Source: Candidatus Atribacteria bacterium (GTDB taxonomy: Bacteria > Atribacterota > JALVIU01). From it: a stretch of 5,384 nucleotides of DNA. The position numbers were made by a program, and so were the translations under genes. Where the stretch lies: positions 1 through 5,384 of the forward strand of contig JALVIU010000101.1 of the NCBI GenBank assembly GCA_027028665.1, given 5' to 3'. This document shows positions 1-5,384 of this stretch, piece after piece. The notes beneath the pieces were generated by a model, which saw only the letters and a program-made list of their open reading frames with translations, ran no database searches and had not been told where the DNA came from. Positions within the stretch are counted from its first letter, which is position 1; every line of letters begins with the position of its first letter.

Positions 1-1573
1 CAAGTGAACCATATATACCACCTTTGAAATATTGATCTACCTTTAAGAATTTTGCCTCATTTATTACATCCTTTTTATCTGTACCAGATGCAAGGTAGAG
101 TATGTACCCTTTTTTGTAAAGTCTCTCCAAAAACTCTCTTGCCCCTTTTATAAGATAGAAGTCAAGTGGAACTTCCCCATCTGTTACCCTATTCATTCTC
201 TTTTTAACAAGTTCTATTATCCTATTTCTATACATAGTCTTATAGTAAAGTGCATCCTTTATCTCAGATGGTGGGATATAACCAAATTCCTTTATCATAT
301 CCACAAGTCCTTCCATCTGAAGAATAGTTTGAACCCCTGTGGTCTTCTCTATAAAATCTTTTACCCTTTCTTCTACCTGAGGATCCTTTTTCCCTCCTGT
401 TATCATCTCTACCATAAGGGGTCCCATGATATTCTCCCATCCTTCCCTTAGGGTAGAGATAGTACCATCAAAATCAAACACGATATGTTTTACCTTTCCC
501 TTTTCTATATAGGCATCCAGTATATCCATATCAGGATGGACTACATCCACATGTCCAAGCTCTTGCCAGTTTTCCTTTACATCAAGAGGGGTCACCTTTC
601 CTGTACCCTCTCGTGTTACAGAGATAGCGGCTACATTATTTGCAATCTTTGCAGAAAACACAGGATCTTTCGTTGCAAGGAGAGATAGGGTAAGTCCTGC
701 CAGAAAGGCATCCCCTGCTCCTGTCACATCAACTGGCTCTACAGTGGGGGTAAATATCCTTTTCTGTATACCTTCTTTTGCGTCCACATAGAGTATTCCT
801 CTCTCAGAAAAAGTAATGTAAAGAGGTGCGCCTATTTTATCACTTACATCAAAACCGTATCTCTTTGCAAAACTCATTGTCTCACGGGGTTTTTCATTCT
901 TTGAAAAAAGTGCATTGTATAAAGATACAAATTCCTGGTCATTGGGCTTTAAGATCATACCTCTAAAGAGATGTGCCCTTTTCCGAGAATCAACAATAAA
1001 GAGTTTATCGGGATATTTTTCTCTTTGATGGTGAAGTAGTCTTCTTATATTTTCAGTGATAACACCTGGATTCTCTGTTTCTTTCTGGTCTCCAATAATT
1101 ACAGCATCTACCACAGGGACCAATCTTTTAAGTTTATCCAGTATAGCATCTTCTGCCTCTTTGGATATAGGGGCAAGCTCTAAAAAGTCCACCCTCCCCT
1201 TATCCTCTTTTCGTGTTTTAATGTTTAGAAGTTTAGTATATGTAAAGGTCATTTTGTCTTTATCTTCTACCACACAGGATTTTGGAAGTCTATATTCATT
1301 CCAGAGTATCCTTTTAAGGTCCATACCAAATCCATCATCACCACACACACTTATAAGGTAAGTTCGTGCACCCAAGAGGGATAAATTCTTCGCCATATTC
1401 CCTGCAGCCCCAGGTGATAGATCCCTCTCTATACATGGGGTATTGGGGATCCCTGTCTCCCTGCTTGGCTCAGAGAGAAGGGGGTCATAATAACACGAAA
1501 GGTCCAAAGACACATCTCCTACAACCAATACCTTAAACCTGGGGAACTCTTCCAGAATCTGAGATATATTCAT
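1..1573 (-). CDS. PfkB-family sugar kinase fused to HAD phosphatase (HldE-kinase-like; C-terminus cut by window edge)
   Basis: My own reverse-strand translation gives 524 residues with no stop, running off the left edge. Residues about 10-335 are a PfkB/ribokinase-fold kinase resembling the heptose-7-phosphate kinase half of HldE/RfaE. Visible features are the N-terminal VVGDVSLDL strand (17-25), PGAAGN (54-59), DSRKR (195-199), LKPND (208-212) and the ATP-site/catalytic signature DVTGAGDAF (282-290), with D288 the likely base. From about 361 a HAD hydrolase begins. Motif I is DFDGT (367-371; D367 nucleophile, D369 acid/base), followed by a roughly 120-residue mostly helical C1-type cap and motif II in LASGTD (S496). 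Motifs III and IV should lie beyond base 1. By analogy the kinase would phosphorylate a sugar phosphate and the HAD domain would remove a different phosphate. The ATG is fixed by GGGAGG five bases upstream. It lies 12 bases after the preceding gene and is probably the last visible cistron of the operon. The kinase and HAD folds are secure; the substrate is inferred. Confidence 0.88.
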   Translation of the reverse strand, partial: MNISQILEEFPRFKVLVVGDVSLDLSCYYDPLLSEPSRETGIPNTPCIERDLSPGAAGNMAKNLSLLGARTYLISVCGDDGFGMDLKRILWNEYRLPKSCVVEDKDKMTFTYTKLLNIKTRKEDKGRVDFLELAPISKEAEDAILDKLKRLVPVVDAVIIGDQKETENPGVITENIRRLLHHQREKYPDKLFIVDSRKRAHLFRGMILKPNDQEFVSLYNALFSKNEKPRETMSFAKRYGFDVSDKIGAPLYITFSERGILYVDAKEGIQKRIFTPTVEPVDVTGAGDAFLAGLTLSLLATKDPVFSAKIANNVAAISVTREGTGKVTPLDVKENWQELGHVDVVHPDMDILDAYIEKGKVKHIVFDFDGTISTLREGWENIMGPLMVEMITGGKKDPQVEERVKDFIEKTTGVQTILQMEGLVDMIKEFGYIPPSEIKDALYYKTMYRNRIIELVKKRMNRVTDGEVPLDFYLIKGAREFLERLYKKGYILYLASGTDKKDVINEAKFLKVDQYFKGGIYGSL

Positions 1574-1585: not shown

Positions 1586-2581
1586 CTATAGCATTTCTTT
1601 AATTAATTTATAAAGAGAAGTAACAGTATCTAAGTGATTTCCCTCTATGTAGTATCCCTTTCCGTTAAAAGACTGAGGCACCCGTGTTACGATAGATTTT
1701 ATGTCACGGAAGTAATATGTATATGTATGATCATCATTTACATCTTGGAGATTTACAGGCCTTAGGTCAAAATCTGCGGTAATTATATCATTCGGTACCA
1801 TACCTATATTTGCTGCCATAGAAAATGCCTTAAGATACACCTCTACCATGATTACGGCAGAGCCTGTAAGAATACAGATGCCCCCATCTATAAGTTTTGT
1901 GATATATGATGCAAATATGCCAAAATCCCTTCCACTTGTCCCGCCTATTGCCCTTCCATTAAATTCGGGATGCATATGGTGGATGTCATCTCCTACTGCT
2001 ACATGTACTGTAAGGGGAATGCCTAGTTTGTAAAAATTATATATAACTGAATACTCTGAATATTTAAACTCTACATTCTCTCCTATGTATAGCTCCCCGG
2101 ATAAGAACCTTCCCAATGTCTCACCATATCCCAATAAAAGCTCATCCCCTACAGAAATGGCCCGATTCAGGTATCTTCCCGTCTCATAGGCAAATCCGAA
2201 CTCACCCTTTTGGAGTGCATTAGGCACATTCTCAGAGGTCTCACCTAAAAGTGCAAGCTCAAAGTCATGAATAGTAAATGCCCCGTTTACACCCAATATA
2301 TCTATCATTCCCTCTTTTGCAAGATCGATAAGTATAGGACCCATACCGTTTTTTATTATATGTGCACCTGATGCCCATATAATGGGAAGCCCCCTTTTCT
2401 TTGCATCTACCATACTCTTTGCAAGGGTTTTTAAATCCTCTGTATCATACGAAAGGGGTTTTTTCAAGATCTCTTCAGGATTCATAAGATCCCTTATGTT
2501 TACTTTGTTCGGCCTTTTTGAAACAGGGTATCTCTTTATTTTAGTAAAATCAAAAATCTCATACCTCCCTCTATATTCCAT
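1586..2581 (-). CDS. Conserved-looking protein of unassigned function, 331 residues, between GmhA-like isomerase and kinase
   Basis: I cannot assign a function. The protein looks soluble, with no signal peptide or membrane segment. It is rich in motif-like blocks typical of an enzyme: SGAHIIKNGMGP (71-82), GVNGAFTIHDFELALLGE (97-114), HVAVGDDIHHMHPEFNG (193-209, four His plus paired Asp, a candidate metal or active site), GGTSGRDF (213-220), TGSAVIMVEVYLKAFSMA (239-256) and YYFRDIKSIVTR (289-300). The alternating strand/Gly-rich-loop/helix pattern suggests a Rossmann-like fold. A distant relation to the deoxyhypusine-synthase-like NAD-binding fold is possible, but the catalytic lysine block of true deoxyhypusine synthases is not visible. 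Its start overlaps the isomerase gene by 11 bases and its stop is 12 bases before the kinase-HAD gene, so it is probably translationally coupled and acts on the same sugar-phosphate pathway. The start is supported by AGGAGGT just upstream. That it is a real gene is near certain; the role is open. Confidence 0.9.
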   Translation of the reverse strand: MEYRGRYEIFDFTKIKRYPVSKRPNKVNIRDLMNPEEILKKPLSYDTEDLKTLAKSMVDAKKRGLPIIWASGAHIIKNGMGPILIDLAKEGMIDILGVNGAFTIHDFELALLGETSENVPNALQKGEFGFAYETGRYLNRAISVGDELLLGYGETLGRFLSGELYIGENVEFKYSEYSVIYNFYKLGIPLTVHVAVGDDIHHMHPEFNGRAIGGTSGRDFGIFASYITKLIDGGICILTGSAVIMVEVYLKAFSMAANIGMVPNDIITADFDLRPVNLQDVNDDHTYTYYFRDIKSIVTRVPQSFNGKGYYIEGNHLDTVTSLYKLIKEML

Positions 2582-3155
2582 CTCTACCTCCTGCTATCCT
2601 TTCCTCTAAGAATTCACATAATATATGTATAATCATGATATGCACCTCTTGTATACGTGGTGTATCGGTTGAGGGGACACAATAACATATATCTGTAAAT
2701 TCTCTCATCTTGCCCCCTGTTTTTCCAGAGAGTCCTATAGTATATATACCTCTTTCTCTTGCTATCTTTAGGGCCTCAATTATATTTTCTGAATTGCCAG
2801 AGGTACTTATACCAATAAATAAATCTCCTTTATTTCCTATACCCTCTATCTGCCTTTTAAATATATATTTAAAATCATAATCGTTTCCAATTTCTGTAAT
2901 AACAGATGGGTTAGAGGGAAGTGCTATGGCAGGGATTGGATCCCTTTCTTTGTAAAATCGCCCGATAAGTTCTGCTACCATATGAAGAGCATCAGCGGTG
3001 CTTCCACCATTTCCTGCAACGAGGATCTTACCTTTATTCTTGATGACCTTTTCCATCATATCTACACCCTTTTCTATATCTTCAATATAGTGTATGAAGA
3101 ATTCTTTTATTATAGCATTGTGCGCCTCCACAATTTTTTGAATCCTATCTTTCAT
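2571..3155 (-). CDS. gmhA: GmhA-like SIS-domain phosphoheptose isomerase
   Basis: This 194-residue cytoplasmic SIS protein has the length and motifs of sedoheptulose-7-phosphate isomerase, which makes D-glycero-D-manno-heptose 7-phosphate for LPS or other heptose glycans. An N-terminal helical segment (1-40) leads to the phosphate-binding loops VAGNGGSTADALH (46-58) and STSGNSENI (117-125), with RIQEVHIMIIH (167-177) near the end. H58, E62, Q169 and H177 have exactly the spacing (4, 107, 8) of the zinc/catalytic set I recall for Burkholderia GmhA (H64, E68, Q175, H183), so the active site looks intact. The ATG is supported by GGAGGT five bases upstream. It lies 30 bases after endonuclease V and overlaps the next gene by 11 bases. 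The short tail AGGRDGI (188-194) encodes the next gene's ribosome binding site. The SIS isomerase call is firm. Heptose as substrate is likely, but a related sugar phosphate (as for DiaA-like or other SIS proteins) is not excluded. Confidence 0.88.
   Translation of the reverse strand: MKDRIQKIVEAHNAIIKEFFIHYIEDIEKGVDMMEKVIKNKGKILVAGNGGSTADALHMVAELIGRFYKERDPIPAIALPSNPSVITEIGNDYDFKYIFKRQIEGIGNKGDLFIGISTSGNSENIIEALKIARERGIYTIGLSGKTGGKMREFTDICYCVPSTDTPRIQEVHIMIIHILCEFLEERIAGGRDGI
2587..2592 (-). promoter_or_regulatory. Ribosome binding site of the 331-residue gene, embedded in the isomerase coding end
   Basis: The minus strand reads AGGAGG, then TAGAG, then the ATG at 2581-2579. The site lies inside the last codons of the upstream SIS gene, where it encodes a Gly-Gly pair. 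It decides the start of the downstream gene and, with the 11-base overlap, points to translational coupling. Confidence 0.75.
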
Positions 3156-3185: not shown

Positions 3186-3890
3186 TTATAACATATTTTT
3201 TAATTTTTTAGAAAATATATGTGCTTCTCTGATGGGAAGTGGTATGCGGTAATTTTCTGTAAGATCCAACACCACTCTGGAGAGAGAATCTATTGAAATA
3301 AGATGCCCAGGGGATATCCACATAGGTTTTACGTAATCACGGGTACGGAGAACTATACCCACTATTTCGTCATCAAAAATAATAGGAGCTCTATCTCCTC
3401 TCTTTAAACCTGGCATAGTATAGTTTCCCAGAAATCCCTGTTTTGCACATCCTATAGTGGGGATCTGAGTAACAATTCCAATATATACAGCAAGACCTGC
3501 CCTATGTGGATGATAAATCCCATGGCCATCTACCATTATAAGGCTTACCTTTTTCCTTACAGAAAGTGGTATTTTATCCCAACAAGAGATAAAACCCACT
3601 CCTTCTCTAAAGGTGAAAAATCCAGGAATATAGGGAAAAAAGACCTCATCTATGCTGTAAAAATTCTTCCAGAAGACAAAGTTATTTTCTTTTCTTTCAA
3701 ATAAAGAACAGGTCGAAATTATATACTCTTTACCGTCTTTCTCAAGGTATGACGCATCAAAACCCAAAACTGTATCCAGAACAGGTGTCCCTGAAAGCAG
3801 TACATGAAAGGCAAGTTTTTTTTGAAAGTGTACGGCTCTTTTGAGATCTTTTTTCTTAGATATGTCAAGCATATCATTTATATAATCCAT
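3186..3890 (-). CDS. nfi: Endonuclease V (deoxyinosine 3' endonuclease)
   Basis: This DNA repair nuclease nicks DNA (or RNA) at the second phosphodiester bond 3' of inosine, acting on deaminated adenine. At 234 residues it is full length for the family (about 220-230). Diagnostic blocks in order: GFDASY (43-48, catalytic D45), PYIPGFFTFRE (86-96, the PYIP wedge that probes the lesion and catalytic E96), IMVDGHGIYHPHRAGLA (118-134, catalytic D121, H127), PTIGCAKQG (144-152), RTRDYVKPMWISPGH (182-196) and YRIPLPIREAH (214-224, H224). All metal-binding acidic residues are present, so it should be active. No Shine-Dalgarno precedes the ATG. Met7 (ATG at 3872) is an alternative start, also without one. 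A TATAAT box lies 8 bases upstream of the ATG, suggesting a leaderless mRNA. It is the promoter-proximal gene of an apparent operon otherwise devoted to sugar phosphates. Confidence 0.95.
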   Translation of the reverse strand: MDYINDMLDISKKKDLKRAVHFQKKLAFHVLLSGTPVLDTVLGFDASYLEKDGKEYIISTCSLFERKENNFVFWKNFYSIDEVFFPYIPGFFTFREGVGFISCWDKIPLSVRKKVSLIMVDGHGIYHPHRAGLAVYIGIVTQIPTIGCAKQGFLGNYTMPGLKRGDRAPIIFDDEIVGIVLRTRDYVKPMWISPGHLISIDSLSRVVLDLTENYRIPLPIREAHIFSKKLKNML

Positions 3891-3954: not shown

Positions 3955-3961
3955 GGGGTGA
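3955..3961 (+). promoter_or_regulatory. Ribosome binding site of cimA
   Basis: GGGGTGA, close to the GGAGGTGA anti-16S consensus, lies five bases before the ATG at 3967 and supports that start. Confidence 0.65.
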
Positions 3962-3966
3962 GGGAG

Positions 3967-5384
3967 ATGGATAATAAAAAAGTTAAACTATACGATACTA
4001 CTCTAAGAGACGGAAGCCAGGGAAGAATGGTACAATTTTCAAGTATAGATAAGATACGCATTGCAAAAGCATTAGATGATTTTGGTATAGATTATATAGA
4101 AGGTGGATGGCCAGGTTCTAATCCAAAGGATATGGAATTTTTCAAAATGGCCCAAAATGAAGAGTTTCAACATGCAAAGATTGCTGCATTTGGCTCCACA
4201 AGAAGGCCCAATATATTACCTGAAGAAGATACAAATTTAAATGCACTCATTGAAGCAAACACCCCTACCGTAACAATATTTGGAAAGTCGTGGGATCTAC
4301 ACGTTACTGATGCGCTAAAGACATCCTTAGAAGAAAATCTGAACATGATTGAATCCTCCATAAAATTTCTAAAATCAAAGGGCAAGGAAGTGATATATGA
4401 TGCAGAACATTTCTTTGATGGATATAAGAACAATCCAGAGTATGCACTTAAAACCTTAAAAGCAGCACTTGAAGGCGGTGTGGATACAATAGTACTTGCA
4501 GATACAAATGGAGGAACACTTCCATGGGATCTTCTTAATATAATAGAAGAAGTGAAAAAAGGCATAGGAATCGAGACATTAGGCATTCATGCCCACAATG
4601 ATAGTGATATGGCAGTGGCAAATTCCCTTATAGGTGTAGGAAAGGGGATAGTCCATATACAGGGCACAATAAATGGATATGGAGAGAGGACGGGAAATGC
4701 AAATCTGTGTTCTATCATTCCAAATCTAATTATAAAAATGGGATATGATGCAAATTGTAAAGAGAATCTTCACAAACTCACAGAGCTTTCAAGATTTGTA
4801 AGTGAACTTGCCAATCTTCCCCATAATCCATATCTTCCATTTGTGGGAGAGAATGCATTTTCCCATAAGGGAGGCATTCATGTAAGCGCCGTTATGAAGA
4901 ATCCATCAACCTATGAACATATAAATCCAGAACTTGTAGGTAATAGAAGAAATATACTTGTATCTGAACTCTCAGGGAAAAGCAATGTCCTATATAAGGC
5001 AAAAGAGTTAAACCTTAATATACCAGAAAATGACGTGATAATAAGAGAAATCGTAAATAAGATAAAGGAACTTGAAAATAAGGGATACCAATTTGAGGCA
5101 GCATCTGGTTCCTTTGAGCTCCTTATAAGGAAGTTTTTAGGCAAATATCCAGAATTCTTTAAGGTATTAGGATACAGGGTAATCGTAGAAAAATTAGGAG
5201 AAGATCATGAGCTTATTTCTGAAGCCACAGTAAAGTTTAAGATTGATGATAATGTAATACTTACTGTAGCTGAAGGAAACGGTCCTGTAAATGCACTGGA
5301 TAAAGCACTTAGAAAGGGGCTTATAAGTTTCTATCCTGCACTTAAATTCATAGAACTTGTGGATTATAAGGTAAGAGTGCTTCA
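3967..5384 (+). CDS. cimA: (R)-citramalate synthase, CimA type (C-terminus cut by window edge)
   Basis: It condenses pyruvate with acetyl-CoA to (R)-citramalate, the first step of the threonine-independent route to 2-oxobutyrate and isoleucine; cytoplasmic. The visible 472 residues have no stop; the family is usually about 520-540 long, so some 50-70 residues lie beyond the edge. The HMGL-like TIM barrel opens with [12 protein letters not shown] (8-19; R14, metal ligand D15). Then come [13 protein letters not shown] (43-55), a block typical of the CimA branch rather than Leu[10 protein letters not shown] (145-153), [10 protein letters not shown] (177-186), [14 protein letters not shown] (207-220; metal ligands H208, H210), [15 protein letters not shown] (233-247; N244) and KGGIHVSAV (301-309). 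From about 373 ([17 protein letters not shown]) the LeuA-type C-terminal dimer domain begins, which binds the feedback inhibitor in this family. It is divergent from nfi across a 76-base gap. Function is confident; alternatives (2-isopropylmalate or homocitrate synthase) fit the motifs less well. Confidence 0.94.

Follow-up and report, generated by a model that had tools for sequence, protein, structure and literature searches.

Heptoses form part of the surface glycans of bacteria, and the ALPK1 pathway of innate immunity has ADP-heptose as a ligand. The DNA analysed here, a contig of 5,384 nucleotides from a Candidatus Atribacteria genome (hereafter, the window), raises the question of what is done by a 331-residue protein whose gene lies between those of a GmhA-type isomerase and of a PfkB-HAD fusion. 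An earlier reading of the sequence only had called the protein unassigned and had suggested a new enzyme of the heptose pathway, possibly of a Rossmann-type, NAD-dependent kind.

A conserved gene between isomerase and kinase genes

The ORF at 1586-2581 on the minus strand is intact from ATG to stop. It overlaps the SIS gene by 11 bases (2571-2581) and is separated from the PfkB gene by 12 bases (1574-1585). Coordinates were rechecked; the ORF, the overlap, the gap and the positions of four motifs in the protein (DDIHHMHPEFNG at 198-209, GGTSGRDF at 213-220, TGSAVIMVEVYLKAF at 239-253 and SGAH at 71-74) are all as the sequence-only reading had given them. The features used below are the following.

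11..493 (-): HAD phosphatase domain, fused to the PfkB domain and cut by the contig end; PF13419, E 1e-6
593..1534 (-): PfkB kinase domain; TIGR02198, 134 bits (cut-off 345); PF00294, E 2e-28
1586..2581 (-): GSU2086-family (NF052581) protein of predicted deoxyhypusine synthase (DHS) fold, 331 aa; NF052581, 319.9 bits; AlphaFold2 pLDDT 96.1, pTM 0.93; Z 19.9 to DHS 8put
1823..1864 (-): GSAVIMVEVYLKAF, residues 240-253; E247 and K251 invariant; helix following strand 234-239 (AlphaFold2 secondary structure)
1967..2005 (-): HVAVGDDIHHMHP, residues 193-205; H193 and D199 invariant, H204 at 95%
2258..2287 (-): NGAxxIHDFE motif, residues 99-108; invariant residues; hhalign to DHS; PDB profile alignment to 6juy, 6lrf and 3c2q
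2571..3155 (-): GmhA-type SIS isomerase, 194 aa; 1tk9 (GmhA), E 4e-50; zinc-site residues; TIGR00441, 199.8 bits

A residue check showed that the window SIS protein keeps all four zinc-site residues of GmhA (H61, E65, Q172/175 and H180/183; taken from PMC5387315); its TIGR00441 score narrowly misses the GmhA cut-off of 209.45. The PfkB domain is closest to domain I of HldE, the heptose-7-phosphate kinase, but is divergent. While kinase and phosphatase are fused in the window, the HAD protein of a Chloroflexota locus (L008) is encoded by a separate gene. An HldE-type nucleotidyltransferase was not found in the window genome, which is about 90% complete; the superfamily is represented there only by NadD, CoaD and a RibF-like protein. 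Two further genes flank the cluster, one for endonuclease V (3186-3890, minus strand; PF04493, E 2e-52) and one, cut by the contig end, for citramalate synthase (3958-5382, plus strand; TIGR00977, 719 bits); neither has an evident link to heptose. In composition the contig is typical of its genome (tetranucleotide r of 0.93 against sampled contigs) and thus reveals no obvious binning error. Contamination of the bin was considered as its source, and composition gives no sign of it.

Conservation was assessed across 83 aligned sequences drawn from many phyla, with relatives 35-57% identical to the window protein. Invariant are G72, H74, N99, G100, A101, I104, H105, D106 and E108, together with H193, D199, D219, E247, K251 and D272. 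Since these 15 residues are invariant throughout, the motifs of the window protein, judged from sequence, are more than chance. The emphasis that the sequence-only reading had laid on H201 and H202 was misplaced: the first is V or I in 65 of the 83 sequences and the second D in 16, and H204 is conserved in 95%. Conservation thus speaks against H201 as part of a putative H201/H202/H204 metal site.

The alignment was made possible by two homologues carried on large plasmids, one from Chloroflexota (L008, 7995-8975) and one from Solidesulfovibrio (L009, 7992-8957). With the window protein as single query, a scan of genome contigs returned no relatives and a PDB search returned only 3c2q (E 0.018). 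The same kind of contig scan with a three-sequence alignment yielded 246 relatives, 80 of which were kept. Pseudaminic acid and transketolase-like genes lie next to the cluster on Solidesulfovibrio pDCAR1.

A catalogued family without an assigned function

The window protein matches NCBIfam NF052581, the GSU2086 family, with 319.9 bits against a cut-off of 250, over positions 2-300 of the 301-position profile; the same profile matches all 83 aligned members (E up to 1e-3). By profile match, the protein is no orphan and belongs to a widespread, catalogued family to which no function is assigned. Because this named, curated family exists, "unassigned" is true of function only. No paper assigning the family a function was found in the literature searched, and neither its predicted DHS fold nor its probable role as an alternative to HldD is mentioned in those papers.

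Other profiles gave little. In Pfam there is a single marginal and partial match, barely above cut-off, to the ArgZ-like C-terminal Rossmann domain (PF21570; 64 of 213 profile positions). The window protein has no match to PF01916 (DHS) or TIGR02197 (HldD) at E up to 10, scores 14.5 bits with TIGR00321 (DHS; cut-off 304), and 25 bits with the full-length TIGR00300 (ArgZ/ornithine cyclodeaminase; cut-off 410.8). The family profile matched ArgZ chains in the PDB at E 1e-5, the match to DHS being weak. A phage or defence origin was also considered and set aside: there was no match in PHROGs, PADLOC or phage records, and no relative on a viral contig.

The predicted fold is that of deoxyhypusine synthase

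A structure was predicted with AlphaFold2 from 81 sequences, the two plasmid sequences being left out (pLDDT 96.1, pTM 0.93). In Foldseek the model ranked the archaeal LOR/SDH-like protein 3c2q, ArgZ/AgrE and DHS at the top (E about 1e-8). Alignment with VIA-align placed the predicted model on DHS 8put with a Z of 19.9 and an rmsd of 3.9 over 271 residues; DHS, AgrE and ArgZ all fall at Z 18-20, and the next group, the sirtuins, at Z 11. Likeness to DHS (PF01916; human DHS, archaeal 8put, 7cmc) extends over the whole chain (Z about 19-20) and includes the IHD/YHD motif region, where NGAxxIHDFE has the counterparts TGANLYHD in DHS and GNALATHDIE in ArgZ/ornithine cyclodeaminase. In hhalign, only residues 81-201 align with true DHS, IHD104-106 falling on LYHD with modest probability. 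With the C-terminal domain of ArgZ/AgrE and the archaeal ornithine cyclodeaminase (PF21570, TIGR00300, 3c2q, 6lrg) the fold is common over about 215 residues, and residues 51-114, including NGAxxIHD/GNALATHDIE, align in sequence; however, the protein covers no more than the 64 PF21570 positions and remains far below the TIGR00300 cut-off.

The differences from DHS are equally marked. Identity is about 12-15%, no DHS profile matches, and the SWGK motif, whose lysine is catalytic (K329 in human DHS), was not found in the window protein or in the family consensus; it is present in two true DHS examined alongside (L151 and L152). Lacking SWGK, the family is not a DHS by sequence. In its stead, the family has invariant E247/K251, H193 and D199, and its genes lie in sugar operons. 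The helix that follows strand 234-239 carries E247 and K251 four residues apart; by topology the two may correspond to H288 and N292 of DHS, and the same reasoning would place the GSAVIMVEVYLKAF segment in the active site. No true DHS was found above cut-off in the window's phylum.

The nearest solved structures being DHS and ArgZ/AgrE, one might suppose that the family carries out polyamine or amino-acid chemistry (in the manner of DHS, homospermidine synthase or ornithine cyclodeaminase) and is found in sugar operons only incidentally. We regard this as very unlikely, given the missing SWGK, the TIGR00321 score of 14.5 bits against 304, and a sugar-gene context that recurs across many phyla and even in a fusion protein (see below). 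Because the predicted fold ranks highest with DHS, tied with ArgZ/AgrE, the family looks like a DHS-related NAD enzyme with a place in heptose metabolism, its use of NAD being deduced from the model. In DHS, NAD serves a transient cycle of hydride transfer, and enzymes of this type restore their own NAD (PMC7226451). This property, and the many invariant polar residues, which argue for catalysis, make it improbable that the protein assists isomerase and kinase non-catalytically, or that it is a dehydratase or a net NAD(P)-dependent dehydrogenase; its tight genetic coupling with the GmhA and kinase genes would otherwise suit such roles.

Sugar-phosphate genes adjoin the family gene in many phyla

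A PfkB, HAD, SIS or nucleotidyltransferase gene lies within 300 bases of the family gene at 45 of the 83 loci. These loci span many phyla, including Planctomycetota and candidate phyla, which bears out what the sequence-only reading had said of similar proteins encoded next to PfkB, HAD and SIS genes in such genomes. Together with inspection of the predicted DHS/ArgZ fold, the neighbourhoods also favour its suggestion of a new NAD-dependent pathway enzyme, the activity itself being a prediction.

The order SIS, family gene, PfkB-HAD fusion recurs as in the window in five Thermotogota-type relatives (L010-L014); a sixth (L015) ends at a contig edge. Most of the Nitrospirota loci fetched have the order SIS, GSU2086, nucleotidyltransferase, and at the one locus scanned the latter is a D-manno-heptose-1-phosphate adenylyltransferase above cut-off. 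Genes for heptose-1-phosphate adenylyltransferases are among the family's neighbours across many phyla, and in Solidesulfovibrio and one Phycisphaerae genome a nucleotidyltransferase-PfkB fusion adjoins the family gene. In a Woesearchaeota locus (L016, 2990-5470) an 826-aa ORF joins an ARMT1-like phosphatase, a cytidylyltransferase-like domain and the DHS-like family domain. The ORF upstream of this fusion combines PfkB with a second nucleotidyltransferase.

The window protein resembles the family of the eponymous GSU2086 of Geobacter sulfurreducens in its full-length NF052581 match above cut-off and in the kind of its neighbours (gmhA and a heptose kinase gene); the window differs in belonging to a second subfamily, in its fused PfkB-HAD and in the lack of a nearby adenylyltransferase. 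Transposon scores of Geobacter on electrodes are alike for hldE (GSU2085, -3.1), GSU2086 (-3.2) and gmhA (GSU2087, -3.7) (PMC5585712); polar effects within one operon may be an alternative cause.

Genes for sugar ABC transporters or Gfo/Idh/MocA oxidoreductases, or deoC, lie next to some of the clusters in Chloroflexota and Thermotogota. Such surroundings, and the failure to find an HldE-type nucleotidyltransferase in the window genome, would suit a catabolic or salvage route: a heptose would be imported and phosphorylated, the family enzyme would epimerise it, and SIS would isomerise the product to sedoheptulose-7-phosphate. A HAD phosphatase is unexpected in a route of this kind, though, the window contig has no transporter gene, and the contexts in Nitrospirota, Geobacter, Solidesulfovibrio and Woesearchaeota look biosynthetic; we therefore give this route a low probability.

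At 17 Poribacteria loci (e.g. L062, 8965-9939) a long gene lies directly upstream of the family gene (the one scanned encodes an SMC protein), and most of these loci have a RecG-like helicase close by. In the Poribacteria genomes tested, an HldE-type nucleotidyltransferase is encoded elsewhere.

The family and HldD seldom occur together in Nitrospirota

HldD is the ADP-L-glycero-D-manno-heptose 6-epimerase, an SDR enzyme acting on ADP-heptose. A tree of the GSU2086 family, with its root drawn at the midpoint, separates two subfamilies. Subfamily I comprises members from Nitrospirota, Acidobacteriota, Methylomirabilota and Eiseniibacteriota; subfamily II comprises the window and Thermotogota (support 99), Chloroflexota, Planctomycetota, Armatimonadota, Bacillota and Poribacteria. 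The pattern described here concerns mainly subfamily I.

Among 198 Nitrospirota genomes, the family is present above cut-off in 143, HldD in 32, the adenylyltransferase in 174 and the HldA kinase in 183, so that much of the remaining pathway is present. The 174 genomes bearing the nucleotidyltransferase divide into 130 with the family only, 28 with HldD only, 3 with both and 13 with neither (Fisher p 3e-19, in a test that ignores shared ancestry). The genomes being related, a tree of HldA was built from 72 of them, rows with neither gene being left out. HldD-only genomes occupy five places on this tree, pointing to about five independent swaps. Comparison of 4-5 independent pairs shows no case of both genes changing in the same direction; a sign test on these pairs, too few to reach 0.05, gave a median p of 0.125-0.25, and dropping the "neither" rows favours opposite changes. 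A run that kept those rows, but in which four rows were misread, gave a median p of 0.6-1.

Across family genomes from many phyla, HldD was detected in 2 of 51; 31 of 50 such genomes have some match to an HldE domain, 20 of them above cut-off, and most family genomes outside Nitrospirota that have an HldE-type nucleotidyltransferase have no HldD. Absence of HldD says little in subfamily II, because many genomes there lack the nucleotidyltransferase: no HldE-type adenylyltransferase was detected in many of them, including all six Thermotogota-type genomes tested (L010-L015).

Altogether, the family tends to replace HldD in Nitrospirota. The earlier statement that no known heptose step needs such a protein should be qualified to this extent: family and 6-epimerase are rarely found together in that phylum. 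Three genomes with both genes and 13 nucleotidyltransferase-bearing genomes with neither count against an epimerase.

The low co-occurrence would fit equally well if the family enzyme modified a carbon other than C6 (e.g. C2 to C5), HldD and the family then leading to two end products. This is the main rival, and we consider it unlikely though well worth reckoning with. It draws on the existence of two forms of the SIS partner, which suggest more than one sugar: a GmhA-type H-E-Q-H and a variant H-D-E-H, the latter possibly a different isomerase, to judge by its residues. The GmhA-type form is that of the window, Thermotogota and Nitrospirota, and, with the D-manno-heptose adenylyltransferase scanned in Nitrospirota, it points to the standard manno-heptose and away from a different product. 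Hosts of the variant include Chloroflexota and Solidesulfovibrio. The variant, in which D and E replace the GmhA zinc ligands E65 and Q172, was seen at loci L008, L009, L022, L023, L025, L029, L046, L049, L052 and L145.

A candidate heptose-phosphate epimerase

The reading that we favour, with an estimated chance somewhat short of even, is that the family is a redox-neutral, NAD-dependent heptose-phosphate epimerase of the DHS superfamily, with C6 as the best candidate for its site of action. An NAD-binding enzyme of this superfamily would have been recruited to heptose metabolism, where it would work with GmhA, which converts sedoheptulose-7-phosphate to heptose-7-phosphate, and with the PfkB kinase and HAD phosphatase. 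Bound NAD+ would oxidise one carbon of the heptose phosphate to a ketone, and the same NADH would then reduce the ketone from the other face, with no net redox change. The likeliest carbon would be C6, giving the D-glycero to L-glycero conversion that HldD performs later, on ADP-heptose. Action of the family enzyme would precede nucleotide activation, since an HldE-type nucleotidyltransferase appears to be missing from many subfamily II genomes (the search covered this nucleotidyltransferase class); judging from these gene contents, the substrate in subfamily II is probably not ADP-heptose. The proposed reaction is, like that of HldD, a redox-neutral epimerisation; in contrast to HldD, the family has an unrelated fold and probably acts earlier, on a sugar phosphate. 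We infer NAD use, substrate level and stereocentre, and likewise that the window subfamily shares one reaction with that of Nitrospirota. Slightly more tentative is the wider proposition that a DHS-fold, NAD-dependent sugar-phosphate epimerase provides a second, unrelated means of heptose C6 inversion before nucleotide activation in many bacterial phyla and some archaea.

Found in 143 of the 198 Nitrospirota genomes sampled, and also in many other phyla, the family apparently acts in the heptose pathway. Were it an epimerase, heptose synthesis would follow a different order of steps across much of the bacterial tree, a missing HldD would no longer mean missing L-glycero-heptose, and the DHS fold would gain a role in carbohydrate metabolism; low co-occurrence with HldD could equally mark a different heptose product.

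Spread of the cassette

Among 50 genomes of the window's phylum, only the window genome has the family above cut-off. The whole cassette is shared with Thermotogota: against L010, the DHS-like protein is 57% identical, PfkB-HAD 44% and SIS 51%. This restriction to one genome in the phylum, and the cassette shared with Thermotogota, suggest horizontal transfer.

A second paralogue was observed in two Nitrospirota genomes (G075, L144 1979-2950; G085, L145 4968-5936), beside a nucleotidyltransferase and a PfkB-nucleotidyltransferase fusion. Both paralogues cluster with Solidesulfovibrio and Phycisphaerae and not with the other Nitrospirota copy.
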